A stretch of 64,000 bases of DNA from Christensenellaceae bacterium (lineage in GTDB: Bacteria; Bacillota; Clostridia; Christensenellales; CAG-138). The DNA is taken from assembly GCA_031261085.1 (NCBI GenBank), contig JAISKB010000004.1:124001-188000 (forward strand), read 5' to 3'. Shown here one piece after another: positions 13,477-56,779 of this stretch. Under the pieces are notes generated by a model that was not told the DNA's origin, searched no databases, and worked only from the letters and a program-made list of their open reading frames with translations. Within the stretch, counting starts at the first letter, position 1. Each line of letters starts with the position of its first letter. The position numbers and the translations under genes were made by a program.

Positions 13477-16400
13477 CTATGCCTGGTTCTTTTTGCGGCG
13501 GCTTACGCTCACCCAGCCCGCAATCGCCATCGCGATTATCAGTGTCGCCCACGGCGCTGTCACAGCATCGCCGGTCTTGGGCGGCAGGCCCGGTATCGGG
13601 ATAATCGGGGTCGGGTCGTCGGTGTCGTCCCGTCTCCGTTCCCACTTGGCGTCAAGATAGACATCTCGTGCCGGCATCCTCTCGCTATCAAAGTTCCATG
13701 CATGATCCGTTGCGCTTGCGTCAAGCGTATTGCTGGCCTTGAGATAATACCACGCATTGAACCTGTAGCCGGACCGCTTCGGATACGGCAGGGGTATCGG
13801 CACATGCCGCCCTTCGCGAACTATGATCTCCCACTTGCCGCCGTTTAGTACCCAGCCTGTGCCGGGGCCGGTGACATTCCAGGACTGACCATCATTCCGT
13901 GGGTCAAATATCGCCGTATGCTCCGGCAGCTCGTAGAAGCCGCAATCCATACCATCGGTGTGGGATCCCGTAAGCTGGAACTGCTCCGTAGCGCCTTCAC
14001 TATACCATAGATCATTCGGGTGACCCGGCGCATCTATAAACTCGATTACGTCGGAATCATTAACCGCGGTGCTGCCCGCCGCCTTCGCCTCAGTATAGAT
14101 ATACTTTTCGGGTTCCGGGTTTTCAAACACCAGCCAGTAGTGCACATTGGCGCGGGAATCCAGCCGATACTTTGTTCCCGTTGGATTGGTCGGGTCGGAC
14201 GCATTCCCCGAGGCAAACCGGAAGTACCCTGTTCCATTCGTTTCGGTGGTAGCAATCAGGAAGCCTTCGGCAGGGTCAAATGCCAGCGGCGTTGCCTGGA
14301 TAGGCCCGCGCTTGCCGAGCAGCTTCACCGCCGGGCTGGCGCCTACGCTAGCCCTTAGGCCCGTGCCCCCACCGGCCGGAACGCGCAGATCCACATCGCT
14401 GTACAGCCGCACCGTTACGCCGGATATTCCGGTTTCGCCCGCGTCTTGAATACCATTATTGTCTACATCCAGCCACACATAGTTGCCTATGGAGTTGGCT
14501 ACCGGCTTGATGCCAGCATTCTTCGTGGTGGTGGTCGTATATGGGGCAGTAGTATAGGCAATGGTAGTCGTCTTGGCATCGTCAACCGTTTCATCCGGGG
14601 TGAAGATGGTTGCGTCGGAATCGCCCGCCGGGTCAGTCCATGAGTACGTTTCAAAATTGTCCCTTACATTCGTCTTATTGAAGCGCACCTCATATACCGG
14701 GTTGCCCGCAAACGGTACGTTGCGGAACTCATACAGGCCGTCCGCGCCGGTCGTAGCGGTATATGCCGCCGCGCCTGTATAATAATCGTTCACCCTGTCG
14801 CCCGCGCTGGTGTACAAAGTCACCACAACGCCGGCCTGGCCGTCTTCGCCAAGCATCTGGCCATCATCGCTGTTGCGATCCAGCCACACCTTGCCCTTGA
14901 TGGTCACAAACTTGTATAGCCCGGCGTTCACATGCGCGTCGCCCGGGGCCGTTACGGTAAATGTGCCGGTATCGCCCGCGGTCTGCGCTGCGCCAGTCAC
15001 AGTCCTGTTCGCCACATCGGTATAGGTATCGTTTGTGCCGGCAGGCAGCTTGCTGAAGTTATACTGGTTGCCATTCGGGTTGGTGAACTCCACCTTATAG
15101 GTAATCGTCCTGCCCGGCGAGCTAACTTCAATATCGGTATAACCTGATGCAAAAGTTGCACCGCTGCCGTTGGCAATTGTGTAAGTGCCATCCGTTGTAG
15201 AGGATATAATCGTTGCGATTGGGGCGCCGCCGTTTTCTATCGTGCCATTTACATACATATACAGCTTAACCGTTGCGGCAATGCCCGTTGTTTCGCTCAC
15301 ATCCTGTATGCCATCCGCATTCACATCTTCCCACACAACGCCCGCTATGTAGTTGGGCAGCGGATAAATACCGGCATCCAGCTTCGTAGTGGTCGAATAC
15401 GCGGGGGTAACGGAAGCGGTATGCGAATCTGTGGCCGTCGCAAGTGTGAACTCCGCATCGGAATCCTTGTCCGGATCTGGGACTGCGGGCAGCGGTTCGG
15501 TTGCATGCAGCAGCGTCCACTCATACGTTTCAATGTTGGAGGTTAACCCTGCCTTATTGAAGCGCACCTCATATGCCGTGCCAGCGGCAAACGGCACATC
15601 CCGGAACTCATACACGCCATTTACGGTCGTCGTGGTAAAGTTCGCATTCGTGGTATAGTTCTGTACCAACGTACCGCCCGTGCCGCCCGTGGCGGTATAT
15701 AAGCCTACCGTAACGCCGGTTATGCCGACTTCTCCGGTACCGCCCTGTATGCCATCATGGTTGACATCCCGCCATACATAGCCCTTAATGGTCACGAACT
15801 TGTATAGCCCGGCGTTCACATGCGCCTCGCCGCCCGTGGCCGGTACGGTAAATGTGTCGGTGCTGCCCGAAAGCTGCGTTACGTTATCCGCCGCCTTCGT
15901 TGTGCTCGTCACATCCGTGGTGGTATTGCTGGCTGCGACGGACAGCTTGCTGAAGTTATACAGAGTACCATCCGGGTTGGTGAACTCCACCTTATAGGTA
16001 ATCGTCCTGCCTGTCGAACTGACTTCAATATCGGTATAACCTGATGCAAAAGCTGCACCACTGCCCTTGGCAATTGTGTAGATGCCACCCGTCGAGGTAA
16101 CCGTCGCAATCGGGGCGCCGCCGTTTTCTATCGTGCCATTTACATACTTATACAGCTTAACGGTTGTGGCAATGCCCGTTGTTTCGCTCGACTGTATGCC
16201 GTCCGCATCCTCGTCTTCCCACACAGCGCCCGCTATGTAGTTGGCTACCGGCTTAATGCCAGCATTCTTCGTTGTGGTGTTCTCGTATGTAGGCCCAACG
16301 GGATACGCAGGGGTAAAGGTTGTCGTCTTGGCATTGTCACCCGCTGCATTCGTGGTGAAGCTGGTTGCGTCGGAATCACCCGTCAGTTCGGTCCACGAGT

Positions 16401-19400
16401 ATGTTTCAATGTTGGATCTTACATTCTCTTTATTGAAACGCACCTCATATACCGGGCTGCCCGCGAACGGTACGTTGCGGAACTCATACAGGCCGTCCGC
16501 GCTGGTCGTAGCGGTAAATGCCGCCGCGCCTGTATAATAATCGTTCACCCTGTTGCCCGCACTGGTGTACAAGGTCACCACAACGCCGGTCACGCCGTCT
16601 TCGCCAGCCATCAGGCCATTATCGCTGTTGCGATCCATCCACACCTTGCCATTGATGGTTACGAACCTATATAGCCCTGCGTTCACATGCGCGTCACCCG
16701 GGGCCGCTAAGGTAAATGTGCCGGTATCGCCCGCGGTCTGCGCTGCGCCAGTCACAGTCCTGTTCGTCACATCGGTCCAGGTACCGCCGTCTGTGCCAGT
16801 AGTAGGCCGCTTGCTGAAGTTATACCTATTACTATTGGGGTTGACGAACTCCACTTTGTAGGTGATACCCGAACCAACCTCAATGCCATCCGTATAGCCG
16901 CCCGCAAACGTAGACGCTTTGTCGGAATCGAAGCGGTAGGAACCATCCGTTTCGGAGGATATAGTCGCAATCGGGTTGCCGCTGTTCTGTATCGTGCCAT
17001 CTACATACTTATACAGCTTAACAGTTGTGGCAATGCCCGTTGTTTCGCTCGACTGTATGCCGTCCGCATTCACATCTTCCCACACGACGCCCGCTATGTA
17101 GTTGGGCAGCTTCTTAATGCCCGCGTCCCAGTTGGTTTTGTGCGCATCGGTTGCGCCATAACCCAGGGCAATCAGGCCCGTCCGCGCCTCGGCATCGGTG
17201 CTGTTTGTGTAAGAAGCATCCGAATTTGTAGCATCCGTGCCTTGCCCCGTCGTCGTCCACTCGTAGGTGTGGGTGGCGGAATCGGCGGATACATCGCCCT
17301 TGTCGAACTTCACGACGTAGCTGGCATTTGGCTCCAGCCTGCTGAAGGTATAGGCGCCAGTCACGTCAGCGGTGGTAGATGTGCCCACCTGTGTCGTGCC
17401 GTCAGCCTTATACAGCGTTACATCCACATCGGCTTGACGGGGTTCGCTGCTGGGGTTATCCCGTATGCCATCAGCGGGAGCGGCATCGAGCCACGCGAGG
17501 CCCTGGATGCTGCCCAGCTTGTAGAACCCGCAATCGATATTGGAGGTATTGACGCTGGTCGTTGCCCACGCCGTTTTACCCACAACACCAAAGCCATCCG
17601 TAGTGGACGGAACCGCGTCAGCGGGCTTAACCGCGTCGGAATCCGTTGCATCGGCGCCCGTATTCGCTGTGGTAAACGCATACTGCTGCGCTATGCTGGT
17701 AGCGTGGCTGGGGTTGGTGAACACTACGCGGTAACCGTATATGCCCGAGAAATCCAGCCCGGTAACCGTCGACAGCTCGTTCGTTTCAGTGAACCTGTAT
17801 ATGCCATCGGAACCTGTCGTCGTGCTCGTCGTCGTGCTCGCAACCAACGTGCCGATGTCGTTTGTTGTATCTGCAACATCCCGCCGGTATAGCTTGACCG
17901 TTACACCCGTTATGGCCGGTTCGGACGGTGTATCGCTGACAAGACCCTGCTGGCCGTTGAGGTTTGCATCCTCCCACACATAGCCTTCAATGAAGTTGGA
18001 GAGCGGGTAAATGCCTGGGTCCGCCTTGGCGTTGCCGCCATACGGTACCGTAACAGCCGCGCTTGTGGCGGTAGCCTGCACACGATCGGTGCCGGTGAAA
18101 ACGGCGTCGGAATCGTTAGCGGCGGCCGCGGGGTTGGTCGCGTTGAGTACCTTCGCCCACAGGTAGGTTTCTGTTGGCGAGGCGGCAATGGTGCTCTTAT
18201 CGAACACGACCGTATAGTCGATGCCCTTTGGCAAGCGGCCAAAGCTATAGTTGCCGCTGGCATCGGTATAGGTTTCGTATACATAAGGGTTGGGGATGTT
18301 GTTCGCATCCGCATAGTTGACCCCGCCCTTTTTCAACGTTACCTTTATGTTGGCCACGGTGCCGGTTTCTGTACCAGCCTTTGTGCCATCGTCGTTGGTA
18401 TCGCGCCAGGCCGTGCCGGTTAGCGTGCTTACCTCGTAGAGGCCCGCGTTTACATATGTTTGGTCTTCATCCGCGCTGAACCAAGCGGTGCTGCCATCGG
18501 CATAGCCGCTCGAGAACGTCTCGGCGTCGGAATCCGTTGCTTCGGCACCCTGATTGGCTTTGGTGAAGTTGTAGGTAGCCGCAGCCGGGTTGGTGAATTT
18601 TACCAAATACTGCACATCGCTGCCATAGGAGGATTCCAGATTGGTAAACTCATAGTAGCCGCCTGTGCCGGTGGTGGTAGCGTCCACATAGGCGCCCGGA
18701 TCCGTAGATACGGTGCGCTTATACAGCGTAGCAGTAACACCCACCACGCCCGGTTCGCTCGCAGGAAGAGAGTCATCCCACGTGCCATCTACCGTGTAGT
18801 TATCTTCCCACGCATAGCCGCTTATGGCCACCGGGGGCGCCACAAGCCTGGCGGCAACGCGCGTGCTTTCCGCGGACGTTGGTTGGCCTGCGTATGTGAA
18901 GCGCGCCCAGAATGTATTATTCGCTACCTTTAGCGCGTTGTCTGTCAGCAGCCCTGCCCACGCCGCGTTGGTTGCCGCGGGCAGCTCCCAAGCGTAGTCT
19001 ACGGTTAGTATCGTATGCCCGGGCAAGCTATAGGTCGAGCTGGTGCCGGCAGCTTTAAATTCCAGCGCCACAATGTTTGCGGTAGCGCTTATGCCTGCAG
19101 TGCTAAGTCCATTCTCCGCCGCGCTAAGCGCCGCGGCGGCGCCGGTCAGCGTTGAGGAATAAACCGTTACATCAGGCGGCGTGGATAGGCCGGACACCGA
19201 AACGTTGGCTTGGCCGATTGTGAGCGGGGTCATGGCGCTGCGCAGCGCCGCGTTCCACTCTGTGCTGCGTCCATCGCCGATATTCGGCAGCTGATCCACA
19301 AAGCGGAATACCGGGATTGCTGCCGTATCCAGCGCGTTCAGCAGCCTGAGCTGGTAGTGGATGATATCCCCGGGATGCACCTCCTGCGGCGTGGTGGAGT

Positions 19401-22400
19401 TGACCCACGCGCTGAAGGTATGCGGGCTCTCATGGGTATGCTCGATTTGGATGAGTTTTTGCACCCGCGGCGCGCCGGCCACCTTTACCGGTATCCCCGA
19501 ATCTTCCGACCGCACGAACAGCCCTCTTAGCCCCAGCGGTGCGGAAATGCCGATCAGCTTATCGTAGTCACCCTGTGCACCCACGTTGGTGGTGCCATTA
19601 AATATGATGTCGCGATCGAGCGCACCCGCCTTAAACGAAGCGCCGGTCGGGTAGGCGATGGTGGGAACAAGCGCCGCGCCGCTGGTGGCATACGCCTCGT
19701 TATACGTTGTTAAGCCATCAATAAACGTCGCCAGCTTAATATACACATTGATAATAAGCGTCTCCCCCGGCTCAAGCGTATCGTTGGGGAAGGACCACAT
19801 CCAAACGTTGTCGTCCAGCTGAGCTGCGCTCATATCCGTCATATTCGGCAAACGGGTATTCCCATCCTCCAGCTTGCCAGTCACCAAATAGCCGTCCGGG
19901 GCGCCCACATTCGTGGTATCCAGCGCCATAACGTTGGGTTCCATATAATCGATAAGGATGGGGTGCACCAGGTTTGGTCCGCCCGCAGCGGAGGTATTTT
20001 TAAGCGTGAGCTGGAATACAGCCGTGCCGCCGTTGGTTACCTCCCCATTGGCCGGGATGGTCATCGCCTTGGTAAGGGTGACCGTAGGCCGCTCGGGCAC
20101 AGGCACCGTCACGGTTTCGTCATCGCTGCCGGTTTTCACAATGCCGCCATACGAACCGCTCACCACGGCCCCATTCCAAATGGTATCTACCTCGGGCTGG
20201 GTCGCATCGAGGGCGGGGGTGAACGAATCGAAGGTCACATCCAGCTCGATGTCGCCCGGCACAAATTCTGCGCCCACCTGGAACTGCGGGTATTGCTCCG
20301 CCAGTTCCGCGGTCGTAGGCTTTGTAGTATTATAGTCCACCGTAATGGTTTGGTTGGCGGGGTTAAGCCCGGTGGTAGGCAGCGTCCACTCGGCGGTATC
20401 ATCGAGCTGCTTCCACTCGCCTTGCCAGGCAACAGCGTCAACGCCGGTGAGGCCATTTGTGCTGCTTACACGCGCCCACACAAAGCCTTTGATATTATCG
20501 GTTGCAAGCGCAAACGCTGCCGATGGGAGCACCCGCACCTTGGTGATTGCATAGGTAGGATCGGGCGTGGGCACGGTAATCGTAGCATTGAGGGCATTTT
20601 TGCCCTTAAACACAAACCCGCCATCCACCACCTGATAATTGCTCAGCGGCAATTTGTTGCCGGTGCCGAGCGGGAGGTCGTCCGTACCCTTCTCGTCAGG
20701 CGGAGCTACCGCAATGGTATAGGTAGCATCAAAGCCGGAGCTGCGCAATGCCGGTATCGTAGCGGGTAGGGTGGTTGCGGTCTTGGAGATGTTAAAATCC
20801 GCCAGGGGCGCAAGCTTTTTATCGCGGAATATCGCCAGCGGCGTGTCGCCGATGCCGTTGGTTTGGCCGCCTACCACAGGCTTTAGGCGCGTGTCGAAGT
20901 ATTCGTTGATGACATAGCCCGGCGCGCTGATTTCTTTAATATAGTAGGTATAAGCGCCAGGCGACGCGAACTTGATGGGCGTAAACACCGCGTTACCGGC
21001 CGTATTGGTGGTAGCGGTTTCTATAAACCCGGTGGTAACGCCTGGGGTTTCGTTGCCTGCCTGCGCATTCTCCAAGGCCGTCTTACCATCCGTGCTCTCA
21101 TACAGCGCAAACACCGCGTCCTTCACCGCAGTTGTGGCGGTATCAAAATCTTGCTTGTGCGCGGCAAAGCGCACGCCCGAGAACTCGTGGTTGATGGTGA
21201 GGGTTTTCAGGTTGTCGGCAGGCTTCCATGTGCCATCGCCACCCGGCATCGTTAAATCAATGGTGTGGTCGATCTCCCAGCCGGAATCCGTATCCGTACC
21301 CAGCGTATCTTGCCCAGCGGGGGTGAATACCAGGGCGCCATCAACATAGGCCGCCGTAATCACAACATTGGAGGGCTGCGAGCTAAGCGTAGTTGCCGGT
21401 AGGATCGGTTCGCCGCTCACGGCAGTAGCAAAATGCGTGTTAACATCAAGCCAGGCATGGGTGCTGGGCATGGGGTTCCCCTCTACCACAGCGTATGTGC
21501 CTTCGCCCAGGTTTATAAAGGTAGCAAGGCCCGTGCCAATTGCCGTCGAGACGGTCTGTTGAAGCGTCCAGGTGCTGGTCCCCGTCTTTTGATACAGGTA
21601 TAGGGGCAGGCCAAACACTTTGCCCTTTTCTGCGGGAACAATTGTATTTAGAGGATTGTCTGGATCCTGGATGGCGGGATACGTAGTTGTAGCCACCACC
21701 TTAAAGCTCGCCAACACGGCATCCTGCACAACCAGCGTATTAACGCCGTTGTTGCCGCCGGTGCCATTGGTAGGCACCGTCGCGGCCAAAACCGTGATGG
21801 GGAACCGCCCGGTGCGCAAAGCATAGTTTGTGGGCGGCACGGTTTCTTCTACCCAATAGGTGCCCGCGGACAGCGTGATAGCATGCTCCAGTTTGTCAGA
21901 AGCCGCGTTCCAATAGGAGCTATTTGCCTTTACAACAAAGTCTTCGGTTCCACCCGTTTCGGAGCTGTATATATCAAATTCCGCGCCCGATAAGCGGTTG
22001 GCCGGTACGTCCTCGCTGCCCAAGAGCTTGTGTATTTTGAGTACGCCGCGTACATCGTTGTTGTAGAACTTGCGGTCTACATTGGCGGCATCACTGCCAG
22101 AGAGAACATCGCCCACCTTCAGCGGGTTTGCCTCCGTGCCGCGAGCTGCTGTAGCGTTGGCAAGGTACACCACCCGGCTGTTGCCAATGGTGACATACAC
22201 CGGCGTGGTATCTTTGCTGTAGTTGGCGTTATTTGTTACGCTTGTTTCCGTCACACGGTATAATCCCGCGTCGAGCAGCTGGGTAATGCCGTTTGTCCAA
22301 TCCGCAGTGGCCCAGGTAAAGGGAGAGCCTGCTATCGGGGCCCAGGTATCGCCGATATCGTCATATTTTTCAATCGCAAACTTGGCTTCCGTGAGGTTGG

Positions 22401-25400
22401 GCGATGTCGCGTTGTTCGGCGCGGTAGCTGCCGCGCTATGCTTAACGCCCAGTTCATCGATAAAGCCCTTTTTGATGGTCAGCGCGCCGCGAACCGGGTG
22501 GTTTACGGTAATAGGCCAAGCCGGGGTGTTGCCATCGCGGAATACATCATGGTTTGCGATAAACACAGCATCATTCGTTGCGGCAGGGGCACTGGTATAA
22601 ATGCTAGCGCCATCCACCTTGATTTGCGGCGATAGCACCACTATGCCATTCGCCACCGTAAAGGTGATTACCGCCGTATTGGTACGGTAAGTAGCCGTCG
22701 CTGCTCCGCTGATGGTAGTTTCGGTCAGCTCATAGTCGCCATCCACCAGGTGATCGAATACTCCGCTGTTGGAAGCCGTTACGGTAATCGGCGAGCCCGA
22801 TGCCGGGTAGGCCACAAAAGTATCCAAAACAGGATCCTTAAGCTTAAGCTGATAGGTAGCCGTTAGCGTAGTATCTGCACTATACGCATTGCCCCACCAG
22901 CTGCGCACATACAGCTTCGCCATCGGCACATCATATACATCTACATCGATGATCGTCGCGCCATCGCTGGGCAGGATGATGGGCCCGATGAGGCCGTTGA
23001 TAAATGTTGTGCCGGTAGCAGGATTGGCGGGTGTCCCATCAAACACCTTGGCCGTGTAGGTACCAAAGTCGTTGTACTCATCGAGGTCCGATTGCCCGGG
23101 AATTTCTTTTAAGAAGTAATACCCCGGCAGCAGCTGCGTGTAGGTGTTTAAATCGCGGTAGGTGGAACCATCACCATTTGCTTCGGGGTCGTTATCATTA
23201 TCCCCCGCAACAACATAGTCGGTCTTGGCCTCGAGAGACCCTTCACTATTGTCATGGCGTATCCCCTTCACCAGCTCCCAGGTGGTTTCATCCGGGTCAT
23301 AATTCCCAGTAGTAGGCCCCGTCTTTTTCCAGGGCGCCTTGTACAGCTCGAATTGGATGCCGGTAAGCTGATTTAGCGTTGCGCTCGGGCCGCCGGTCGG
23401 GAATTTTTCCACGTTCAGCTTGCCCTCGCCGGTATAGTTGCGCAAGGGCCCCAGCAGGGAATTGACGCCGCGGTGATCGATATTCGTCGTTTGCACCTGC
23501 GCGATAAGACCCGTTACCGCATTCGCCTCAAAGTTCCCCAGCACGTTTATGCAATAGGAGGGGGGGTTCATCGCGGCTATCACGCTGTTGGTGGCCACAT
23601 AGCTAGGCGGCAGCGGCCCTTTTTCTATCAACACCAGGTGGAAGCTCATGGCCGCGCGCATGCAATCTTCATCGCTTGCGGCCGCCAAATCAGTCGGGAA
23701 CGCCGCTTTAACGCCGTCGATTACATCCTGCGCGTTAAAGTCGATAACGCGATCAATGCTCCCGCCGTCATAGGCCTCATTGATGTGCGCGATCATCCCC
23801 GCGCCGTCGTTATTTTCCAAATACTTCAGGCCGGTGAAGCCCGCGCCGTCTTCCCAGGCGGCCGCGCCCGTGCCGTCGTCACTCGCTATGTTCCACCATT
23901 CCCACGGCACTACGCCTGCCCCAGTGCCGCCGTTTACGCCATTGTATGCGGGGAACGAATAATACTCTGTCACGAAGTCGCCCAGGTGGTTGATGCGTCG
24001 GCCGCCCTCGACCTCCGCATAGGCTATCGAGCGGGAGGTAACGGTTTCTTGCTCGCCGCCCAGCGTTTGATACTTGCCCTCGCCATTCACATAGCCATAA
24101 TACACGCCAAACGCTACGCCCGTCAGCGGCCCCTTGGTTATGGTGTCGCCGTTAGGCTGGATTTCGTAGCCGTATTTGGAGGCGTGCACGCGCGCCGCCC
24201 AGCCTATTATGCCGCCCGACGCGCCGTTATCGTAGTTGCCCACATCCATGCGCAAAAACTTGGAGCCGGTTTCGTCATCCGGCCAAATGTCATCGTTTTC
24301 ATCGTTTAATTCGAAATAGAGTACCTGCTTGCTGGGCGCAACGCCCGTGGCATTCCAGCCGGTGCTCATTTCAGCTTTGAAGTCGTTTGGGTTGTAAAGA
24401 GGGTTCCCATCCGCGTATGCGTTTGTGGCCGGCGCATGCGTGGCAAAGCCCGCATCCATACTAGCCAAGCCCCAAACGGAGGATTCGACCAATATATACC
24501 GCCCCGCGGGCAGCTGGCGCGAGTAAGCGCCCGGGTCGCCGTCGGCGCCGCCGCCGGTCGTAAGGTCATCCATCTTTTTGGCGACCGTGCCCAACCAGTT
24601 TACATCCCAATGATCTACTAGTCTGCCTTGTTTATCTTTATGTTCATAACCGTTTAAGGCTGCCGCGGTGGATACCAGATGCGGCTGGTTCGCATAAAGA
24701 GCATGCGCATCAGACGCCGCAGTATGGTTGTCTAAAGAGCCAAAGGAGAACAAAGCGTTTTCTACAGCAGTGTTTATTTTATCTTGGTCAGTTAAACCTG
24801 CGCCAACGCCAGTATCTTTAAGTTTCCAAATCTCAAACTTGATTTGGAAGGGATCTTCCGCGTTTTTCGGGTCAATTACATAATTCGGGTCGTTATTAAC
24901 GGGTGAATAGCCAGCGCCACCGGGTTCTCTGCTGATTGTGTGGGGGGCCTCATTCACGTCGTTAATATACCCCGAAAGGATAAGCCCACTCGATGAATTA
25001 TGCACCAGCCACTTGTTCAGGTTTACGAAGTAGGGGTCTAATTCGTTTACCAGCTCATATGGATTAGCATTATCGTTAGGATTGGTTCCAACCTGGTAGC
25101 TGCCAATCCAAATGCTGTCTGCATAGCCGTTCGCGCCGATATCAAACATAATATCACGCGTTTTTATAAACGTGTATTCCTCATCTTCGCTCCCAATTAC
25201 ATGGGGCGCCCATACTTCACTAAGCTTATACTTACTCCCAATACCGCCTATAGCATCAGGCGGGATGATAGAGTTTAAAAGCAAATTGCCGTTGTTATTC
25301 GCTGTGATAAGGGTGCTCAGCGCCGCTGGGCTGCCCCCTGCCGTTGGCGCGCCATCCGTCAGTATGATGCCGTCTCCATCCTCCGCAAACGTAACCTCAT

Positions 25401-28400
25401 CGGTGGTGAAGGTGCCGAGCATTCTGCCATCCTCGTCCCACATTGCGTAGTGCCGCACGGACCCCACTTCGTAATACAGCTGGAACAACGCGCCGGGCAG
25501 CGGGTCCCGCTTGCGCCTTGTGCTTGTAGACTCAGGAGTCGGATAGGGCTCCATGGTGTTGGTTTCGCCCAGCTTTTGGAACGTCAGCGAAGGCTTCAGG
25601 TGGTTCGCCGCCGTAATTTGAAGCTCGTTTTTGTTACCTGCAGTATCTATCGTGTAGCCGTCTTGGCTATACCTTAGCTCCGCATCCTCCCAATTGAATA
25701 TATCTTTACCGGCTGTTGTTTCGCCCGTAAGACCAACTATCGCGCCCGCGGCATTAAGCTGAATCATCGCAAAGGGGGTTTCTCCCCGCTTCAAATACAG
25801 GGGGTTCGCGGAGGTCTGCGTAATGGTATAGGTATGCCCCGGCTGCAGCACAAGGTCGACAGCCGGATCCGTTTCATCTTTAAACGTTATATAGGTAGCG
25901 CCCGTGGGCGTTGCGTCTGTGGCGGTGGCGGTGCCTTTAAGCGTGGCGCCCTCATATATTTTATATACCCACGGCCCTATTACGGCGGCGCTGTCGGCCG
26001 ATTTCTGCGTGCGGATAGAAATCGTAAGCGGGCGCACGTTGAGCAGGCTGCCATCGCCAAATTGTACCGTAGGCGTAGGCGTACCGGTGGCCGCATAATC
26101 GTCAGCCGTTACCTCAGCGGTAGGTACGCCGGTTGCGCTGGCCACCGACACGGTTTCGTTGTAGAAAGGAACCGTGTTCGTGGCCAACGTGTCATTCGCT
26201 ATAAACGCGGCGCTGTAAGGGGGCAGCGTATACCCGCCGGCAGGCGTTACAACCTCTACAACGGCATATTCGCCGATGGGCATGTTGGCAAACTGAATCA
26301 CACCAGTAATGGCAGCGGCGGTTGTCGTTTTGGGCGTGGTGCCATCCACCACCAGCTCCCAGTTGCCGCCGTTCTTTTTATACAGCGCATAGGTACCGCC
26401 GCTGATGGTTTTTGTTGTGTCGGCCGCCGGTCTCTTGATGGTTGTAAGGGTTGGCATAACCGCCTGCATAAACGCCGCGGTTTGCACCGATGCGTTCAAC
26501 GCCACGGTATGGAGAGTCCCATCCGCCGTAGAAGCATCGGCAGAGGCCGTACCCTCCGCAACGGTGACATCGGTACCCGCGGAAGCTACCACGGTGTAGC
26601 CAGTCCCGGGCAGGGCTGTTACGCGGTACTTGCCCGCGGGCAGCAGCTTTTTAAGCACGCCTCCCGCCGGTACGGTAACCGTAGTTGCACCGTTTGTCCA
26701 GACATCCCCGAGCGCCGTAAACGCGGTATCTACCGCGGAACCGTCGCTGGTCAGCCGCTCTATTCTATAGCTGCCGCCTAAGTTGGCTCCAGCATAGTTA
26801 TAGCCATGTATCGCCAGCTCGCCATAAACCGAGCGGTTGATGATTTTGCTGCTCGTTTCGTCTATGTTACTCGCGCCGTTGATATTTATGGGGGCAGCGC
26901 CGTATAGGCTGGCCTGCACCGTTACCTGCACATTGGTAGCGGCGCCCAGCGGGGTATACCGCGCGGCATTTGTGCCATTCGTAATGTACAGGGCTGTTTC
27001 TTTTATGTAGTACTCGCCCGCCGGGAACGCATACTGCACCACCTCCGCAGTAGCCGAATCTGTGGCCGTGCCGGCATAGGGTACCCGTATCGTCTGTGGG
27101 GTAAAGAGCGGGTCGGTTTTGCCGGACACCTCAAACTCCACATAGAAGCTGCCTACGTTATCGGCCGTACCATCCGGTTTTAGGAATTGCTTGCCCAGCA
27201 AAAAGCTGCCGGTATTGCGGTTGTAGTTTTTCACATATCTGTTGTCCGCCGAGGTGGATACCCGAACCTGACCCAAGGCAATTTCGGCTATCTCCGCCGC
27301 GTCATTGGTAGGATCCAGCGCCGGTCCCAGTTTTTCGAGCGGGAGCGCTGTAAGCGTGTTGGGAACGGGATCTGCACCAACCAATATGGATACATTATAA
27401 AGACCTGACGGCAGGCTTTTGAAGTTAAACCAACCATCGCCCGTTGGGTTTATGTTCGTGATGGTATGGGTTTCAGCGGTGCCATCCTTTGTTAGCGTCA
27501 CCGTCAGCCCCACATCGTTATATGGACCGTAGGTTATCGCATCCGCAACCCACTGATGCTGCCTCATCAGTTGAATGCTTACATCGCCCAAACCAATGGA
27601 GGTGTTCACGGCCTCGATTACGGGGTCGCCAATCACCGGCGACAGGGCGTTTGCCGGTGCTGCGTTGGGGCCCCAATTGCCTACCTGTACCGTGCTGGAG
27701 CCGTTCACATCAGGGTCCGATACGACGATTTGCTTGGCCGGCATACCCGCATAGTTGCTGGTGATGTAGCCGGTTTCGGTCAGCTTATAGGTACCGGGAG
27801 CCAGGTTGGCAAACTCTACTTTGGAACCAGCAGGGGCCGGAACCGAATAGAAAGCCAGATCTTCAGTCTGAGGGGCGCCGGTTGAGACGCCGTTTGTGTC
27901 GGTCGGCTGCAATATAAACTGTATTGTACCACCGGCGCCATGCATCAAGTCGCCATAAATGATATCCAGCGCGGAGGTATATTTTTGTGGTGGGCCCGAA
28001 ATTTCAATAAGCTTATTAACCGTCAGCTTGGGCTGATGGGGGTTATCCTGATAATACCCAATGGCGGCGGGCGCGCTGCCTGTATTGGTATACGTTGACA
28101 CGAGGGGGGTTATTACCTTGATTACGGCAGCCTGCGCCGTGTTGGTGATGTGGGTGAGCATGGTTTCCAGAGGCACGATGCCCGGTGTCCACGGGGTGGT
28201 ATACGCCAATTTATCATAGGTGACCTCTACCGTAAACGTGAGGTCGTTGGTAGGGGTGTTTGGGTTGATTGTCACATCGAAATCGATGCCTGTAGAAGTC
28301 GCATTGATAGGTGCAATCACAAGGTTGTTATCATTGGGATTATCGGGATCATCGATGGGTAGTGCGACGCCACCCTGTTTTACCACAATGCTTGTAGGCA

Positions 28401-29757
28401 CGCCCGCGCCCGCTTTATAGCCGCTTAAAACATCGTGTATATGCATGCTTTGTACATACTCACGGCCTGTGTTCACGTTTTCGTTGTCGCCGCTCGTATT
28501 CACCTTGATGGTATAGGTTTGCGTAAGGGTTTCGTGAGCCCCACCGTCTATCTCACCGGCTACCACCGTATACTCCCGCGCGGCCGCCGTGGTGAATTCG
28601 CTGCCCGGTGCGGCAGTCTTTTCAACAGACCAAACTTCATCGGTCTGGCCAAAAAGGGTATAGCTGCTGGTGGCTGCCGCCGTATTGCCACCGTTCGCTT
28701 CCGGCTTTTGCTCCCAACCAATAATTGCATTCCCTTCATCGAGCACCGGCTGCGCATCCAAAATATAGCCGGTTATGGATATGGTAGAATCGTTGGGCGT
28801 AACGCCGTTATCAAAATAATAATTGAGCGCAAAGGTGCCAAACAGCGGGTCCTCATGCTCGGGGTTCGGCAGGGTATACACCATGCAGGGGCCCACTATT
28901 GCCTCCCCATTATAGGTAAAGGAGTACGCGGGAACATATTCGAGGGTCGCGCCCGCAATCTCGCTCCCATGAATTACTGGATCGCAATGCGCAAACGCAG
29001 CCGTCGGCACGGGTATCGCGACAATCACGCTCTCGCCGCCGTGGCCTACTACGACCATATCAAACTCGATACCGTTCGCGGCGCCTGTCTTCACTTCGAT
29101 GCTGACGCCATCATCCTCCGGCGTTGCGGTCGTTGGCGAAATGGCCAATGTGAGCGGGGCCGTTTGGGAGCTCCTCAGCTTCGCCCACTTAATGACCGCG
29201 CCCTCGTAGCTTACCTGCAGCAGGTCGGGGATAGCGCGAACGCCCGCAATATCTCCCGCCGGTACCGTAATTATATATTCTTGGGTGAAGCCATTCCCCG
29301 CCGCCATGGAGGCGGGCAGGGTAATTGTTGGGCTAACCAAGGACGGGTAGCCAGTGAACACCAGCTCTGCCGTGAGGCCATCGTAGGTATCCTCTTCTGT
29401 AACGGTGCCAACGGCCACGGCATTGATGGTAACCCTCACAGTCAGGTCTTCCCCAATGTAGCTTACCTCTTCCAATAATATCTCGAGATCCAACTGGCCT
29501 GGATCAAAGGGTGAAATAGCGGAAAGGGCCATAAAGCCTCCGCCTTCGCCTTCACCTTCACCCGCGCCTTCGCCCGCACCTTCGGACGGCGGCGGCGTGC
29601 CGGTATCTTCGCTGGTGTTGACGGGCGTGCCCTCATCGCCGGCTTCCGCAAACGCGATGCCCAGGTCGCTCAGCGTGCTGACCATCATCAGCACAACCAG
29701 CAACAACGATAGGAATGAACGCCAACCTCTTTTTTTGCTTCCCTGATGCTTATTCAC
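13477..29757 (-). CDS. Giant LPXTG-like anchored surface protein 1 (SpaA/Cna-B-like, DUF11-like, SdrD-B-like, InlB-B-like repeats)
   Basis: Single ~5.4 kaa frame; signal peptide NKHQGSKKRGWRSFLSLLLVVLMMVSTLSDLGIAFAE; C-terminal PGLPPKTGD + TM + RRKKNQA. GTG at 29757 preferred over ATG at 29772 because that ATG lies inside the RBS (ATGGAGGG). Confidence 0.93.
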   Translation of the reverse strand: MNKHQGSKKRGWRSFLSLLLVVLMMVSTLSDLGIAFAEAGDEGTPVNTSEDTGTPPPSEGAGEGAGEGEGEGGGFMALSAISPFDPGQLDLEILLEEVSYIGEDLTVRVTINAVAVGTVTEEDTYDGLTAELVFTGYPSLVSPTITLPASMAAGNGFTQEYIITVPAGDIAGVRAIPDLLQVSYEGAVIKWAKLRSSQTAPLTLAISPTTATPEDDGVSIEVKTGAANGIEFDMVVVGHGGESVIVAIPVPTAAFAHCDPVIHGSEIAGATLEYVPAYSFTYNGEAIVGPCMVYTLPNPEHEDPLFGTFALNYYFDNGVTPNDSTISITGYILDAQPVLDEGNAIIGWEQKPEANGGNTAAATSSYTLFGQTDEVWSVEKTAAPGSEFTTAAAREYTVVAGEIDGGAHETLTQTYTIKVNTSGDNENVNTGREYVQSMHIHDVLSGYKAGAGVPTSIVVKQGGVALPIDDPDNPNDNNLVIAPINATSTGIDFDVTINPNTPTNDLTFTVEVTYDKLAYTTPWTPGIVPLETMLTHITNTAQAAVIKVITPLVSTYTNTGSAPAAIGYYQDNPHQPKLTVNKLIEISGPPQKYTSALDIIYGDLMHGAGGTIQFILQPTDTNGVSTGAPQTEDLAFYSVPAPAGSKVEFANLAPGTYKLTETGYITSNYAGMPAKQIVVSDPDVNGSSTVQVGNWGPNAAPANALSPVIGDPVIEAVNTSIGLGDVSIQLMRQHQWVADAITYGPYNDVGLTVTLTKDGTAETHTITNINPTGDGWFNFKSLPSGLYNVSILVGADPVPNTLTALPLEKLGPALDPTNDAAEIAEIALGQVRVSTSADNRYVKNYNRNTGSFLLGKQFLKPDGTADNVGSFYVEFEVSGKTDPLFTPQTIRVPYAGTATDSATAEVVQYAFPAGEYYIKETALYITNGTNAARYTPLGAATNVQVTVQASLYGAAPININGASNIDETSSKIINRSVYGELAIHGYNYAGANLGGSYRIERLTSDGSAVDTAFTALGDVWTNGATTVTVPAGGVLKKLLPAGKYRVTALPGTGYTVVASAGTDVTVAEGTASADASTADGTLHTVALNASVQTAAFMQAVMPTLTTIKRPAADTTKTISGGTYALYKKNGGNWELVVDGTTPKTTTAAAITGVIQFANMPIGEYAVVEVVTPAGGYTLPPYSAAFIANDTLATNTVPFYNETVSVASATGVPTAEVTADDYAATGTPTPTVQFGDGSLLNVRPLTISIRTQKSADSAAVIGPWVYKIYEGATLKGTATATDATPTGATYITFKDETDPAVDLVLQPGHTYTITQTSANPLYLKRGETPFAMIQLNAAGAIVGLTGETTAGKDIFNWEDAELRYSQDGYTIDTAGNKNELQITAANHLKPSLTFQKLGETNTMEPYPTPESTSTRRKRDPLPGALFQLYYEVGSVRHYAMWDEDGRMLGTFTTDEVTFAEDGDGIILTDGAPTAGGSPAALSTLITANNNGNLLLNSIIPPDAIGGIGSKYKLSEVWAPHVIGSEDEEYTFIKTRDIMFDIGANGYADSIWIGSYQVGTNPNDNANPYELVNELDPYFVNLNKWLVHNSSSGLILSGYINDVNEAPHTISREPGGAGYSPVNNDPNYVIDPKNAEDPFQIKFEIWKLKDTGVGAGLTDQDKINTAVENALFSFGSLDNHTAASDAHALYANQPHLVSTAAALNGYEHKDKQGRLVDHWDVNWLGTVAKKMDDLTTGGGADGDPGAYSRQLPAGRYILVESSVWGLASMDAGFATHAPATNAYADGNPLYNPNDFKAEMSTGWNATGVAPSKQVLYFELNDENDDIWPDDETGSKFLRMDVGNYDNGASGGIIGWAARVHASKYGYEIQPNGDTITKGPLTGVAFGVYYGYVNGEGKYQTLGGEQETVTSRSIAYAEVEGGRRINHLGDFVTEYYSFPAYNGVNGGTGAGVVPWEWWNIASDDGTGAAAWEDGAGFTGLKYLENNDGAGMIAHINEAYDGGSIDRVIDFNAQDVIDGVKAAFPTDLAAASDEDCMRAAMSFHLVLIEKGPLPPSYVATNSVIAAMNPPSYCINVLGNFEANAVTGLIAQVQTTNIDHRGVNSLLGPLRNYTGEGKLNVEKFPTGGPSATLNQLTGIQFELYKAPWKKTGPTTGNYDPDETTWELVKGIRHDNSEGSLEAKTDYVVAGDNDNDPEANGDGSTYRDLNTYTQLLPGYYFLKEIPGQSDLDEYNDFGTYTAKVFDGTPANPATGTTFINGLIGPIILPSDGATIIDVDVYDVPMAKLYVRSWWGNAYSADTTLTATYQLKLKDPVLDTFVAYPASGSPITVTASNSGVFDHLVDGDYELTETTISGAATATYRTNTAVITFTVANGIVVLSPQIKVDGASIYTSAPAATNDAVFIANHDVFRDGNTPAWPITVNHPVRGALTIKKGFIDELGVKHSAAATAPNNATSPNLTEAKFAIEKYDDIGDTWAPIAGSPFTWATADWTNGITQLLDAGLYRVTETSVTNNANYSKDTTPVYVTIGNSRVVYLANATAARGTEANPLKVGDVLSGSDAANVDRKFYNNDVRGVLKIHKLLGSEDVPANRLSGAEFDIYSSETGGTEDFVVKANSSYWNAASDKLEHAITLSAGTYWVEETVPPTNYALRTGRFPITVLAATVPTNGTGGNNGVNTLVVQDAVLASFKVVATTTYPAIQDPDNPLNTIVPAEKGKVFGLPLYLYQKTGTSTWTLQQTVSTAIGTGLATFINLGEGTYAVVEGNPMPSTHAWLDVNTHFATAVSGEPILPATTLSSQPSNVVITAAYVDGALVFTPAGQDTLGTDTDSGWEIDHTIDLTMPGGDGTWKPADNLKTLTINHEFSGVRFAAHKQDFDTATTAVKDAVFALYESTDGKTALENAQAGNETPGVTTGFIETATTNTAGNAVFTPIKFASPGAYTYYIKEISAPGYVINEYFDTRLKPVVGGQTNGIGDTPLAIFRDKKLAPLADFNISKTATTLPATIPALRSSGFDATYTIAVAPPDEKGTDDLPLGTGNKLPLSNYQVVDGGFVFKGKNALNATITVPTPDPTYAITKVRVLPSAAFALATDNIKGFVWARVSSTNGLTGVDAVAWQGEWKQLDDTAEWTLPTTGLNPANQTITVDYNTTKPTTAELAEQYPQFQVGAEFVPGDIELDVTFDSFTPALDATQPEVDTIWNGAVVSGSYGGIVKTGSDDETVTVPVPERPTVTLTKAMTIPANGEVTNGGTAVFQLTLKNTSAAGGPNLVHPILIDYMEPNVMALDTTNVGAPDGYLVTGKLEDGNTRLPNMTDMSAAQLDDNVWMWSFPNDTLEPGETLIINVYIKLATFIDGLTTYNEAYATSGAALVPTIAYPTGASFKAGALDRDIIFNGTTNVGAQGDYDKLIGISAPLGLRGLFVRSEDSGIPVKVAGAPRVQKLIQIEHTHESPHTFSAWVNSTTPQEVHPGDIIHYQLRLLNALDTAAIPVFRFVDQLPNIGDGRSTEWNAALRSAMTPLTIGQANVSVSGLSTPPDVTVYSSTLTGAAAALSAAENGLSTAGISATANIVALEFKAAGTSSTYSLPGHTILTVDYAWELPAATNAAWAGLLTDNALKVANNTFWARFTYAGQPTSAESTRVAARLVAPPVAISGYAWEDNYTVDGTWDDSLPASEPGVVGVTATLYKRTVSTDPGAYVDATTTGTGGYYEFTNLESSYGSDVQYLVKFTNPAAATYNFTKANQGAEATDSDAETFSSGYADGSTAWFSADEDQTYVNAGLYEVSTLTGTAWRDTNDDGTKAGTETGTVANIKVTLKKGGVNYADANNIPNPYVYETYTDASGNYSFGRLPKGIDYTVVFDKSTIAASPTETYLWAKVLNATNPAAAANDSDAVFTGTDRVQATATSAAVTVPYGGNAKADPGIYPLSNFIEGYVWEDANLNGQQGLVSDTPSEPAITGVTVKLYRRDVADTTNDIGTLVASTTTSTTTGSDGIYRFTETNELSTVTGLDFSGIYGYRVVFTNPSHATSIAQQYAFTTANTGADATDSDAVKPADAVPSTTDGFGVVGKTAWATTSVNTSNIDCGFYKLGSIQGLAWLDAAPADGIRDNPSSEPRQADVDVTLYKADGTTQVGTSTTADVTGAYTFSRLEPNASYVVKFDKGDVSADSATHTYEWTTTGQGTDATNSDASYTNSTDAEARTGLIALGYGATDAHKTNWDAGIKKLPNYIAGVVWEDVNADGIQSSETTGIATTVKLYKYVDGTIQNSGNPIATISSETDGSYRFDSDKASTFAGGYTDGIEVGSGITYKVEFVNPNSNRYNFSKRPTTGTDGGTWTDVTNRTVTGAAQTAGDTGTFTLAAPGDAHVNAGLYRFVTINGKVWMDRNSDNGLMAGEDGVTGVVVTLYTSAGNRVNDYYTGAAAFTATTSADGLYEFRNVPFAGSPVYEVRFNKENVRSNIETYSWTELTGDSDATSFTTNAAGDNAKTTTFTPAYPVGPTYENTTTKNAGIKPVANYIAGAVWEDEDADGIQSSETTGIATTVKLYKYVNGTIENGGAPIATVTSTGGIYTIAKGSGAAFASGYTDIEVSSTGRTITYKVEFTNPDGTLYNFSKLSVAASNTTTDVTSTTKAADNVTQLSGSTDTFTVPATGGEAHVNAGLYKFVTIKGYVWRDVNHDGIQGGTGEVGITGVTVGLYTATGGTGGTLVQNYTTNANFTTTTVNGVYEFRDVPFAAGTAYEVRFNKAGLTSNIETYEWTLLHATEPLPAVPDPDKDSDAEFTLATATDSHTASVTPAYSTTTKLDAGIYPLPNYIAGVVWEDVNADGIQDVSETTGIAATVKLYMYVNGTIENGGAPIATIISSTTDGTYTIANGSGATFASGYTDIEVSSPGRTITYKVEFTNPNGNQYNFSKLPAGTNDTYTDVANRTVTGAAQTAGDTGTFTVTAPGDAHVNAGLYKFVTIKGKVWLDRNSDDGQMLGEDGQAGVVVTLYTSAGDRVNDYYTGAAAYTATTGADGLYEFRNVPFAGNPVYEVRFNKTNVRDNFETYSWTDPAGDSDATIFTPDETVDDAKTTTIAYTTAPYTTTTTKNAGIKPVANSIGNYVWLDVDNNGIQDAGETGISGVTVRLYSDVDLRVPAGGGTGLRASVGASPAVKLLGKRGPIQATPLAFDPAEGFLIATTETNGTGYFRFASGNASDPTNPTGTKYRLDSRANVHYWLVFENPEPEKYIYTEAKAAGSTAVNDSDVIEFIDAPGHPNDLWYSEGATEQFQLTGSHTDGMDCGFYELPEHTAIFDPRNDGQSWNVTGPGTGWVLNGGKWEIIVREGRHVPIPLPYPKRSGYRFNAWYYLKASNTLDASATDHAWNFDSERMPARDVYLDAKWERRRDDTDDPTPIIPIPGLPPKTGDAVTAPWATLIIAMAIAGWVSVSRRKKNQA
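14450..18830 (-). repeat. Tandem array of 11 SdrD-B-like domains in giant 1 (5 dyads + 1); the three proximal units are conserved at the DNA level with ~0.87 kb period
   Basis: ISGYAWED, LTGTAWRD, IEGYVWED, IQGLAWLD, IAGVVWEDVNADG, INGKVWMDRNSD, IAGAVWEDEDADG, IKGYVWRDVNHDG, IAGVVWEDVNADG, IKGKVWLDRNSD, IGNYVWLDVDNNG. DNA block starting cgtgcca(t/c)..acatac..atacagctta recurs at 15241, 16132, 16993. Confidence 0.9.
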
Positions 29758-29816
29758 AATAATACCCTCCATACCGTAAAGTAAAATTAATATTTATCTT
29801 GTAAGTCCGTGTAACG

Positions 29817-34944: not shown

Positions 34945-37900
34945 CTATGCCCGGTTCTTTTTGCGGCGGCGCACGTCCATCCAGCCCATGATTGCTATTG
35001 CGAGTATCAGCACCGCCCACGGCGCCGCCGCGGCATCGCCGGTTTTGGGCGGCAGGCCCGGTATCGGGATGACCGGGGTCGGGTCGTCGGTGTCGTCCCG
35101 CTTCCTCTGCCACTTGGCATAAAGCTCGATATCCCTGCCCGGCATCCTCTCGGCTGTAAAGCTCCAGCTATGGTTATCATCCAGCAAGAACCATCCGCCG
35201 TTAAAGGTATAGCCGTCGCGCTTCGGGCTCGGGTTGGGCATAGGCACACGCCGCCCTTCGCGGACTGTGATTTCCCACTTGCCGCCATTCAGCGCCCAGC
35301 CCGTGCCGGGGCCGGTCACATTCCAGGCCTTGCCGTCATTGCGCGGGTCAAATATCGCCTTATACTGCGGTATTTCATATAAGCCGCAATCCATATCCTC
35401 GGTGTACCCCCCGGTGAGGGTAAACCGCTGCGTGCTGCCCTCGCTAAACCAGTTGTCGCCCGGGTGCGCCGGGTCCTCCACCAAGTTTGCGGGGATGGGC
35501 CCCACGTCCGAATCCGCAGCGGCAGCGCCGCTATGATACAGCGTATACCCATAGTTCTCACCGTCCGGGTTTTCAAACACCAGCCAATACCGCACATCCG
35601 CGCCGGAATCCAGCTGATACGCCGCGCAAGTGGCAAATTGGAAGTACCCGGGCAAACCGCTTGTGGGGTGATTCTCCGTAACGGCGGTGGCCAGTAAAAA
35701 GCCGTTTGCGGCATCCACCTCGCCATACGTTGGCCCCGTGCGCAAGTCCTTGGTGCTGTACAGCCGCACCGTTACAGCGTTTATGCCCGTTTCGTTCGCA
35801 TCCTGTATGCCATCGCGGTTCGCATCCAGCCACACATAGTCGCCTATGGAGTTGCCCAGCGGGTAAATGCCCGCGTCCGCTTTGGCGTTGCCGCCATAGG
35901 GCACCGCAATGGCCGCGGTCGCGGCCGTGGCCTGCGTGCGGGTCCCGGTCCCCTCTACATAGTCGGCGTCGGAATCCGTATCGCTTAAGGTAGGATAGCC
36001 CGGGTTGTTCACCCTCGCCCACAGGTAGGTTTCTACCAGCGAAGCGGCAACGGTGCCCTTATCGAACACGACCGTATAATCACCGGCGGCGGGCAGACGG
36101 CTGAAGCTGTAGGTGCCATCTGCACTGACGACTGCGTTCGCATACGCGCCGCCGTTTGCGCCGGTGGTATAATTGACGCCGCCCTTTTTAAGCGTTACCG
36201 TCACGCCGGGCACAAGCGTCGTTTCACCGGCATCCTTTGTGCCGTTATCGCTGTCGGCCGCTTCCAGCCAAGCCCAGCCGGTTAACGTGCTGAACCTATA
36301 CAGGCCCGCATTCACGCCCGTTTGGCTGGTTTCCGCCCTAAACCATGCGGTGGTACCCGCGCCATAATCGGCATCGATGGCTTCCGCGTCCGAATTTACC
36401 GCCTCGCCAACCCCGCTCGCCTTGGCTGGGGTAAAGTTGTAGGCATCCTTATCCGGGTTGGTAAACACCACCTGGTACGTTAGGCCGCTGCCATAAGACG
36501 AGGGCAGGTTGGTAAACTCGTAGTGACCATATGCATCGGTCGTTGTGGTGCCCACGGCCTGCGCGCCGGTTATGGTCGGCGTCCCAAGCACCACCTCTTC
36601 CACACCCTCATACAGCGTCACCGTAGCCGCGGGCAGCGGGCGCGCGCTATCCCCAAATTGGGGCTCGGCGGCCGACCACTCGCCATCGATATTGGTATCT
36701 TCCCACACATACCCGGCTATGGTCACGGGCGGCGCCACCAGCTTGGCGGCAACGCTGTTGCTCTTTATTTGGGTAAATGTGCTCATATACGCGGTAAAGT
36801 TATTGACGCCCACCTGCAGCGCGTTATTTGCGAGCAGGCCCGTATCCCAAGCCGGGTCATTCGCCGCGGGCAGCTCCCAATCATACGTTACCGTAAGCAG
36901 GTTGCCCTGCTCCAGCCTGTAGCCGCCCGCAATATCGACGGTAAGCGTCTTGGCCTTGGTGGTGGGGTTTTCTATAACGTTCGGCGCGATGGTTTGGGCT
37001 GTTGCGCTGCCGCCGCCGGCCCGCGCTATGGCGCTGACGCTGCCCATGTTCACCGTGGTCGCCTCAATCAGCTCCTTCGTCCACATGGAGGCGCGGCCAT
37101 CGCCTATAATGGGCAGCTGATCCGCAAACTGCGTTACGACAGGCACCTGCGCGTATGGCAGATCTATGCCGTTATCGACCTGCAGCCTATAGTGTATGGT
37201 ATCGCCGGGGTGCACATCCACCGGCGCCTTGCTGCTCACCCAGCCGCTGTCATAAGGCGTGCTGTCCGCGTTCACGCCCGTAACCCGTATGGATTTTTGC
37301 GCATGGGCCATAGCGCTGGGCACAACCAGCAGGCCCTCCTCGGCGGCGCGTACAAACAGGCCCTTATTCCCCAGCAGCGAATCGGCCGCGATGAGCTTTG
37401 CATAGTCGCTCGCGGCAAGCCCATTCGGCGCATTCTCAAAAATGGTGTTGCGCGCGCCCGTAAAGGGCTCCAGCCCCGCAAACGAAGCGCCGGTCGGGTA
37501 TTTGAGGGAGGGGCTTAACGGCGCATCGCTGGTGGCAAACGCCTCGTTATCCACCGTGGCGCTATCCGACATAACGGCCAGCCTGCCCAGCAGCAGTATC
37601 GTAATCGAATCCCCCGGGTGCAGCGTCGTGCGCGGGAAGCTCCACATCACGATGCTGCCCGCCGCATCCACCTGCCTAAACGGGTTTACGGTATCCTCCT
37701 CGTGGATAACACCCGGCGCCGCGGATAGCGTATACAGCGGCTTGCCGTCATCCCCATATTCCAGCGTGAGCAGCTCCGGCTGCATAAAGTCCACAATACG
37801 GGGCGCTTCCAAGTCCGCCTGGGACTCGGCGCAGTTGGTGAGCGTAAGTTCATATTCAACCAAAGAACCCAAAATCAGCGGCTGCCCGGCGGGCGGCGCT

Positions 37901-46743: not shown

Positions 46744-46752
46744 AATAAAATC

Positions 46753-46946
46753 CTCCATAGCGCCGCAGCGCAAAATTATATATAATTTTAAGCCGTATTC
46801 GCGGCCCCTGTGGCTTGTTCTGACTTGTTCCTTTTAATTACAAGAACAATTCTTATTATTCTTGTTGGGTAAAAGCAACCCGGCGCATCAGACTACTTCT
46901 GCTGCCCCGGGCAAATCATCCTCAAGCCCTACTTTGCTCTTTACCG
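46753..46946 (-). ncRNA. Candidate structured 5' leader RNA of giant 2
   Basis: Minus strand GGTAAAGAGCAA...TTGCTTTTACC closing helix (46868-46945) enclosing two hairpins, plus downstream alternative CAAG/CTTG pairings. Confidence 0.4.
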
Positions 46947-55566: not shown

Positions 55567-56169
55567 TTATTGAAATAATATTTGGGCCACACCGGCCGTT
55601 TCGGCCCCGCGCAGGTCGCGCAATATCGCCTCAAACGAGCAGTTGATCTCGTACCCTTCCGCTATCAAAAAGAACCCGCCGCAAATACCCGGCCGGGGCT
55701 GGCCCAGCGTGAGCGCGGCCTTGCCCTTTTGCAGCAACGCGGCGTTTACGGCCGCGAGCAGCGGCTCTATGCGCGCCGCATCCGCCTGCGCGGGCTCCAC
55801 CCGTTCGCCGCCCTCGCTGTTTTCTTGCAGCAAGCGATTGAGCAACGCATCCCGCGCCGGCCCGCTTTCGCCGCCCAGCTGTTTTAGCGCCTCGTCGAAG
55901 GCCGCGTCCACCACAACGTGCTTTTGCGCAAGCGCGTACTTGCGGCTGTCCAGCTCGGCATTGGTGCGGCTGCGCTCGAGGATATCCGCATGGGCGCGCT
56001 TGGCGCGCTTGGCGGCGTCATCCTCTATGCGGCGCACTTCGGTTTCGGCGCGCTCCGCAACCACGGCGGCCTGCGCCTTCGCATCGGCTATCATGGAGTC
56101 GGCCTCCACGCGGGCGGAATCCAATATGCAGGACAGGAGCTTTTCGCCGTTGTTCAAATCGTTTGCCAT
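55567..56169 (-). CDS. atpE (V-type): V/A-type ATP synthase subunit E
   Basis: Coiled-coil N-terminus, GGFFLIAEGYEINCSFEAILRDLR, operon position. Confidence 0.88.
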   Translation of the reverse strand: MANDLNNGEKLLSCILDSARVEADSMIADAKAQAAVVAERAETEVRRIEDDAAKRAKRAHADILERSRTNAELDSRKYALAQKHVVVDAAFDEALKQLGGESGPARDALLNRLLQENSEGGERVEPAQADAARIEPLLAAVNAALLQKGKAALTLGQPRPGICGGFFLIAEGYEINCSFEAILRDLRGAETAGVAQILFQ

Positions 56170-56199
56170 ATCAAATCTCCCACAGTTCTTTCAAAAAGC

Positions 56200-56694: not shown

Positions 56695-56779
56695 TGCCCT
56701 AACCCTCCAAATAGTATTAATTTCGATTGTATAGCGGTTAAATCGTATGTATCTTCAGCGAAGCCTCGCTGTATAAATG

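Follow-up and report, generated by a model that had tools for sequence, protein, structure and literature searches.

We analyzed two giant genes, here called giant 1 and giant 2, in a 64,000-nucleotide stretch (the window; positions 124,001 to 188,000 of contig JAISKB010000004.1) of the Christensenellaceae bacterium assembly GCA_031261085.1. Pfam scans of both placed SpaA domains in the body and SdrD_B domains in the tail, and in giant 2 a Listeria-Bacteroides repeat (Flg_new), which the C-terminal segment of giant 1 resembles, precedes the LPPKTG end. Both C-termini consist of LPPKTG, a hydrophobic stretch, and an RRKKN tail, the motif being LPXTG-like (PPKTG) and non-canonical. The signal peptides are 87% identical, the anchor tails 71%, and the SpaA-domain bodies 41-44%, and the giants are diverged tandem paralogues. 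Giant 2 probably starts at the ATG at 46758 rather than at the TTG, because it reads MEDFIVNKHQ there, where giant 1 begins MEGIIVNKHQ. Both carry the stalk domains plus wall anchor of a fibrillar adhesin (SpaA, SdrD_B, LPPKTG), and the giants are probably sortase-anchored surface fibres; the six sortase matches in the genome all lie outside the window around the giants. The anchor tail (LPPKTG...RRKKN) is repeated elsewhere in the genome at 75-79% DNA identity, with one copy, on contig C27, in an open frame of 2805 amino acids (aa) and another, on C17, at the extreme contig end; these copies appear to mark a family of similarly anchored proteins.

We found eleven SdrD-B domains in giant 1, in the order A1B1 A2B2 A3B3 A4B4 A5B5 C, and three in giant 2 (A1 B1 C). 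These are the counts given by an initial annotation of this DNA, which had also noted the same first pair and last domain in both, and domain count, Pfam, and MAFFT alignment confirmed them. Scanned in context, SdrD_B (PF17210) passed in 10 of the 11 giant 1 stretches and in all 3 of giant 2; B2, missed in context, scored E = 5e-10 alone, and A4 and giant 2 B1 alone reached 27.1 and 29.2 bits against a curated cut-off of 29.7. SdrD_B was the main match of the tail domains, with Cna_B and SpaA merely weak secondary ones. The motifs quoted earlier (IAGYVWED, LTGWAWLE, and IGDYVWLD) all occur in giant 2, and the B1 ends carry, as quoted, VPYGGNAKADPGIYPLSN and VPYGGNAKADAGIYPLGN in the two giants, B1 of giant 1 ending in VPYGGNAKADPGIYPLSN. 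As giants 1 and 2 correspond in A1, B1, and C (50-58% identity) and the MAFFT alignment opens one gap, between B1 and C, the length difference sits exactly there, at the insertion point proposed before. The extra block A2-B5, eight Ig-like domains (residues 3928-5094, window 14491-17991), comprises 1167 aa, or 78% of the 1489-aa length gap, averaging 292 aa per dyad, in keeping with the proposed unit of about 290 aa and with the claim that extra domains make up most of a ~1490-aa difference. The other 322 aa are scattered indels, many of them near the N-terminus, plus an insert in domain C of giant 1. The interval assigned to the expansion, 14450-18830, captures A1-B5 (14491-18825) with slight excess and omits most of domain C (13936-14490).

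The extra dyads do not form a set of four similar units. Neighboring stalk domains are 24-35% identical and next-but-one domains up to 77%. Dyads 3-5 are alike (A domains 63-77%, B3/B5 77%, and B4 47-50% to B3 and B5), and A2 and B2 share only about 30-38% identity with the A and B domains of these dyads, respectively. In the tree of all domains, A3-A5 grouped together (support 100/100), as did B3-B5 (93/90), and the best tree placed A2 beside C. Neither for the A nor for the B domains did this tree unite the four extra dyads in one clade, and approximately unbiased (AU) tests did not reject such a clade either (A, p = 0.14; B, p = 0.22). The fourfold copying of a dyad that the initial annotation had read here is thus not supported as worded: the domain phylogeny bears out the close relationship of dyads 3-5 and does not show dyad 2 to belong with them. 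Four recent duplications of a single block did not produce the extra domains.

Dyad 5 is a recent recombinant, with an A4-like start, an A3-like end of its A domain, and a B3-like domain, and so departs from the picture of four similar extra dyads, as does dyad 2. Its DNA follows dyad 4 through most of the A domain and then dyad 3 to the end of B, with the DNA of 14557-14856 (B5) and 16312-16611 (B3) being 87% identical. Upon counting informative sites, we obtained a ratio of dyad 4 + dyad 5 to dyad 3 + dyad 5 groupings of 54:18 on the left side of the breakpoint and 26:138 on the right side (0/10000 permutations). Third codon positions alone gave 24:5 and 12:54 (0/10000 permutations), and first plus second positions gave the same split, with the breakpoint near 15024-15028. 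Synonymous divergence (dS) in the middle of the A domain was 0.37 between dyads 4 and 5 versus 1.69 between dyads 3 and 5, whereas in the B domain it was 0.87 and 0.23, respectively. As the mosaic is visible at silent sites, protein-level selection would not explain the pattern. On the three sequences, dyad 5 may have been either the recipient or the donor to both dyads 3 and 4. A single unequal crossover in an array of dyads 3 and 4 was rejected as the source of dyad 5, since the hybrid would lie between these dyads and not after dyad 4, and at least two exchanges are therefore needed. Furthermore, A3, A4, and A5 begin with ~36 codons that are similar in every pairing (dS 0.13-0.17), unlike the middles of these domains, and that form a separate homogenised tract. 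Dyads 3-5 have thus exchanged sequence through recombination between like domains.

We then considered when the extra length arose. A tree of the six dyads separated the extra dyads from the dyad-1 pair (97/97); because it is unrooted, so that expansion and loss are indistinguishable in it, we used AU tests on all domains for direction. Copying of giant 1 dyad 1 after the split of the giants predicts that the A (and B) domains of giant 1 group without those of giant 2. A clade of giant 1 B1-B5 excluding giant 2 B1 was rejected (p 0.0005-0.0075 over six runs) and the corresponding A clade weakly so (p 0.017-0.054); the case against descent of the extra domains from giant 1 dyad 1 after the split is thus robust for B and marginal for A. 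The distances tell of several ages. Nonsynonymous divergence (dN) was 0.60-0.78 between dyad 1 and dyads 2 and 3, the oldest types, 0.43 between B4 and B3/B5 (dS 0.9-1.0), 0.36-0.41 between the giants in the set of A1, B1, and C, or 0.30-0.36 (dS 0.8-1.1) in B1 and C, and 0.13-0.15 in the youngest pairs, B3-B5 and A4-A5. As the divergence of B3 and B4 is about that of the giants, the greater part of the extra length may have been present in the ancestor and lost in giant 2, or may have been imported. By these distances, only about one dyad (286 aa), dyad 5, is clearly younger than the giants, and the other extra dyads look about as old as the giants, or older.

We favor, with a probability of about 0.58, old length followed by loss in giant 2. 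Each giant carries a wall-proximal stalk of alternating A- and B-type SdrD-B (CnaB-like) domains with a C-type domain last; forerunners of dyad 2 and of dyads 3/4 would already have been present when the giants diverged; giant 2 would have come by its short stalk probably through loss of dyads by recombination; and the stalk of giant 1 would represent the old length plus about one recent dyad. Loss in giant 2 explains the data at least as well as gain in giant 1. Of the initial annotation, the position, the dyad unit, and the 78% share hold, and its direction and mechanism, a four-copy expansion, were over-confident.

Gain would have the ancestor carry A1 B1 C and giant 1 acquire four dyads by duplication at one point after the split, followed by fast divergence. 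The single clean gap position, the mutual closeness of dyads 3-5, and the somewhat higher identity of A2 to giant 1 A1 than to giant 2 A1 (44 vs 34%) speak for it; against these stand the AU rejection of a dyad-1 origin, weak only for A, the undemonstrated grouping of dyad 2 with dyads 3-5, and B3 and B4 being about as distant as the two giants, and we consider such an expansion unlikely. Somewhat less likely still is an import, in which recombination would have brought in the stretch between B1 and C from a different SdrD-B protein, either a paralogue or a foreign one, with reshuffling afterwards. Nothing in giant 2 corresponds closely to dyads 2-5, and the anchor tails shared with other genes of the genome make inter-gene exchange plausible, yet no donor emerged: a DNA search of the genome found no second copy of the array, and the sole other SdrD-B gene found there, on contig C10, has its domains arranged differently. 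This gene is an open frame of 1543 aa with two SdrD-B domains near its N-terminus, not beside a wall anchor. An assembly artefact, in which mis-joined repeats produced the copy number or the mosaic, is conceivable in a draft genome of 28 contigs with several similar giant genes, and we regard it as very improbable. No exact repeat of at least 60 nucleotides occurs within the array, and short-read assembly should therefore resolve the repeats; the mosaic halves differ by ~5-15% from their nearest relatives in most stretches, where a mis-join would give identity; and the frame is open across 5431 codons.

Several points count against the favored reading. The dating assumes that A1, B1, and C were not homogenised between the giants. 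Fourfold-degenerate sites differ at 14/44 positions in C (Fisher p = 0.008) and 13/54 in the anchor tail (p = 6e-5), versus 397/753 in the body; B1, at 19/50, is borderline (p = 0.057), and A1 (20/38) matches the body. The wall-end parts (13936-14490 and 13477-13935) may thus have been made younger-looking by gene conversion between the paralogues or by stronger codon constraint. The AU test for the A domains was marginal, and our searches found no outside orthologue to root expansion versus loss. A structural model of dyad 5, of middling confidence, had as its best PDB match the A2-A3-B1-B2 region of Staphylococcus aureus SdrD (E = 1.6e-10), at a mean predicted local distance difference test (pLDDT) score of 68.7 and with low global template modelling (TM) scores. 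As for an adhesive head, the known adhesive Pfam families are absent from the scans of both giants, whose bodies are largely without Pfam match.

The search for orthologues covered 103 genomes of the family, including both other members of the genus (query, N-terminal half), about 400 sampled genomes of the order and about 390 of the class (query, mid-region), two genome-collection scans, and one viral-contig scan, and found none; the weak matches were short partial alignments, probably SpaA-like. A plasmid search gave no full-length relative; its only matches were SdrD-B proteins of staphylococci, Spirosoma, and Methanohalobium, which were 26-35% identical. One genome of the same genus (G002) keeps the DnaB_2-DnaI pair that flanks giant 2, with neither a giant-like gene nor any further gene of the window found over the 17 kb past the pair, and the other (G001) gave no match, not even to DnaB_2. 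Polarity, and the strain-to-strain length variation forecast by the initial annotation, therefore lack comparison genomes. In another family member (G119:C189:60158-62380), a frame of 1895 aa holds eight SdrD_B-like matches ~290 nucleotides apart, a different, short-period array.

Table 1. Features of the two giant genes and of related loci; positions are those of the window unless a contig is named (g1, giant 1; g2, giant 2).
Feature	Position	Strand	Remarks
Giant 1	13477..29772	minus	5431 aa (translation); signal peptide, SpaA-type domains in body, 11 SdrD-B, Flg_new-like C-terminal segment, LPPKTG anchor
g1 A1 (SdrD-B)	18424..18825	minus	orthologous to g2 A1, 50% identity
g1 B1	17992..18423	minus	orthologous to g2 B1, 58% identity
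g1 A2, diverged extra domain	17509..17991	minus	Pfam SdrD_B E = 1.1e-8 alone; 27-44% to other A domains depending on alignment
g1 B2, diverged extra domain	17098..17508	minus	Pfam SdrD_B E = 5.1e-10 alone
g1 A3	16657..17097	minus	77% to A5, 63% to A4
g1 B3	16237..16656	minus	77% to B5, 50% to B4
g1 A4	15790..16236	minus	73% to A5
g1 B4, older branch	15349..15789	minus	47-50% to B3/B5; dS 0.9-1.0
g1 A5, mosaic	14902..15348	minus	5' two-thirds A4-like, 3' third A3-like
Putative recombination breakpoint in A5	15024..15028	minus	permutation test
g1 B5, close copy of B3	14491..14901	minus	77% aa identity, dS 0.23
g1 C, last SdrD-B	13936..14490	minus	orthologous to g2 C, 55% identity; insert not in giant 2
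Homogenised tract in A5	15241-15348 (approx.)		
Homogenised tract in A4	16129-16236 (approx.)		
Homogenised tract in A3	16993-17097 (approx.)		
Giant 2	34945..46773	minus	3942 aa counted from TTG (translation); SpaA-type domains, 3 SdrD-B domains, Flg_new repeat, LPPKTG anchor
g2 A1	36286..36720	minus	domain count, Pfam
g2 B1	35848..36285	minus	domain count, Pfam
g2 C	35380..35847	minus	domain count, Pfam
Anchor-tail copy	C27:63007-63116		DNA search of genome
Anchor-tail copy	C17:64029-64130		DNA search of genome
Anchor-tail copy	C22:25893-25961		DNA search of genome

Elsewhere in the window, a T-box leader lies at 728-985, upstream of a beta-eliminating-lyase gene, and the AT skew is positive (0.164) at 56001-58000 over a V-ATPase subunit I gene, with negative values in the adjoining stretches.

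The B-domain stalk of S. aureus SdrD (B1-B5; PDB 4JDZ and 10PS; PF17210) belongs to the same family by sequence and gave the best PDB match of the dyad 5 model. Stalks built from SdrD-type B domains are stiff and stabilised by calcium (PMC6232131; PMC13174682). Like SdrD, the giants place tandem domains between a head region and the wall anchor and keep an EF-hand-like loop (WxDxNxDG..E) in most domains; unlike it, giant 1 has 11 domains instead of 5, and these alternate between A and B types with neighbors 24-35% identical. A3-A5 lack a DSDA/V-like motif that all other domains carry, and calcium sites may differ between these two types of domain. Unlike in Sdr proteins, a serine-aspartate repeat region is absent from both giant translations, and Pfam scans gave no family of the Sdr-type N2N3 head, with only SpaA, SdrD_B, and Flg_new above cut-off; two hallmarks of microbial surface components recognizing adhesive matrix molecules (MSCRAMMs) are thus missing. 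In a model of SdrD, the distances from N3 to the B-domain centers run from 62 to 224 Å over B1-B5 (PMC13174682), which gives ~4 nm per B domain. As a presumed spacer, the eight extra domains would, at this spacing, put the head of giant 1 ~30 nm beyond that of giant 2. Cna B-repeat and SpaA-type pilin stalks have the CnaB/transthyretin-like fold, probably shared by the giants' tail domains, and SpaA domains occur in the bodies of both giants; unlike in these stalks, the giants' tail domains match Cna_B and SpaA weakly and SdrD_B mainly.

Periscope Proteins (Sgo_0707 with its SHIRT domains, SasG, and Rib) likewise bear a stalk of tandem folded domains on a wall-anchored protein and differ in copy number through recombination, and SasG, like the giants, alternates two domain types (E and G5). 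Their repeats are highly identical, with SHIRT neighbors at 82-100% (PMC8201768), whereas the closest like domains of the giants reach 63-77%. With repeats so diverged (closest A pairs 63-77%, closest B pair 77% at the protein level) and sharing no exact run of 60 nucleotides or more, rapid copy-number change of the Periscope type is not expected; Periscope Proteins vary in repeat number between strains, and the giants are known here from one genome. Adjacent domains of large multidomain proteins are usually less than 50% identical (PMC8201768), and alternation keeps neighbor identity below 50% while like domains recombine. It is a tentative idea, and one we would not bet on, that alternation is a rule for stalk lengthening, in which recombination is confined to like types (A with A, B with B), so that whole dyads change and similar domains never become adjacent. 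If true, a stalk could grow or shrink by recombination and avoid misfolding between like neighbors and, should other proteins follow the rule as well, it would account for the way in which long stalks escape misfolding of like next to like. The giants provide a dated case, at the level of domains, in which stalk length changes via like-domain exchange in an alternating array and not by clean block copying, and they caution against reading unequal lengths of paralogues as expansion when the comparison has no root. Overall, giant 1 has an ordinary stalk of a known kind that contains a clear mosaic.

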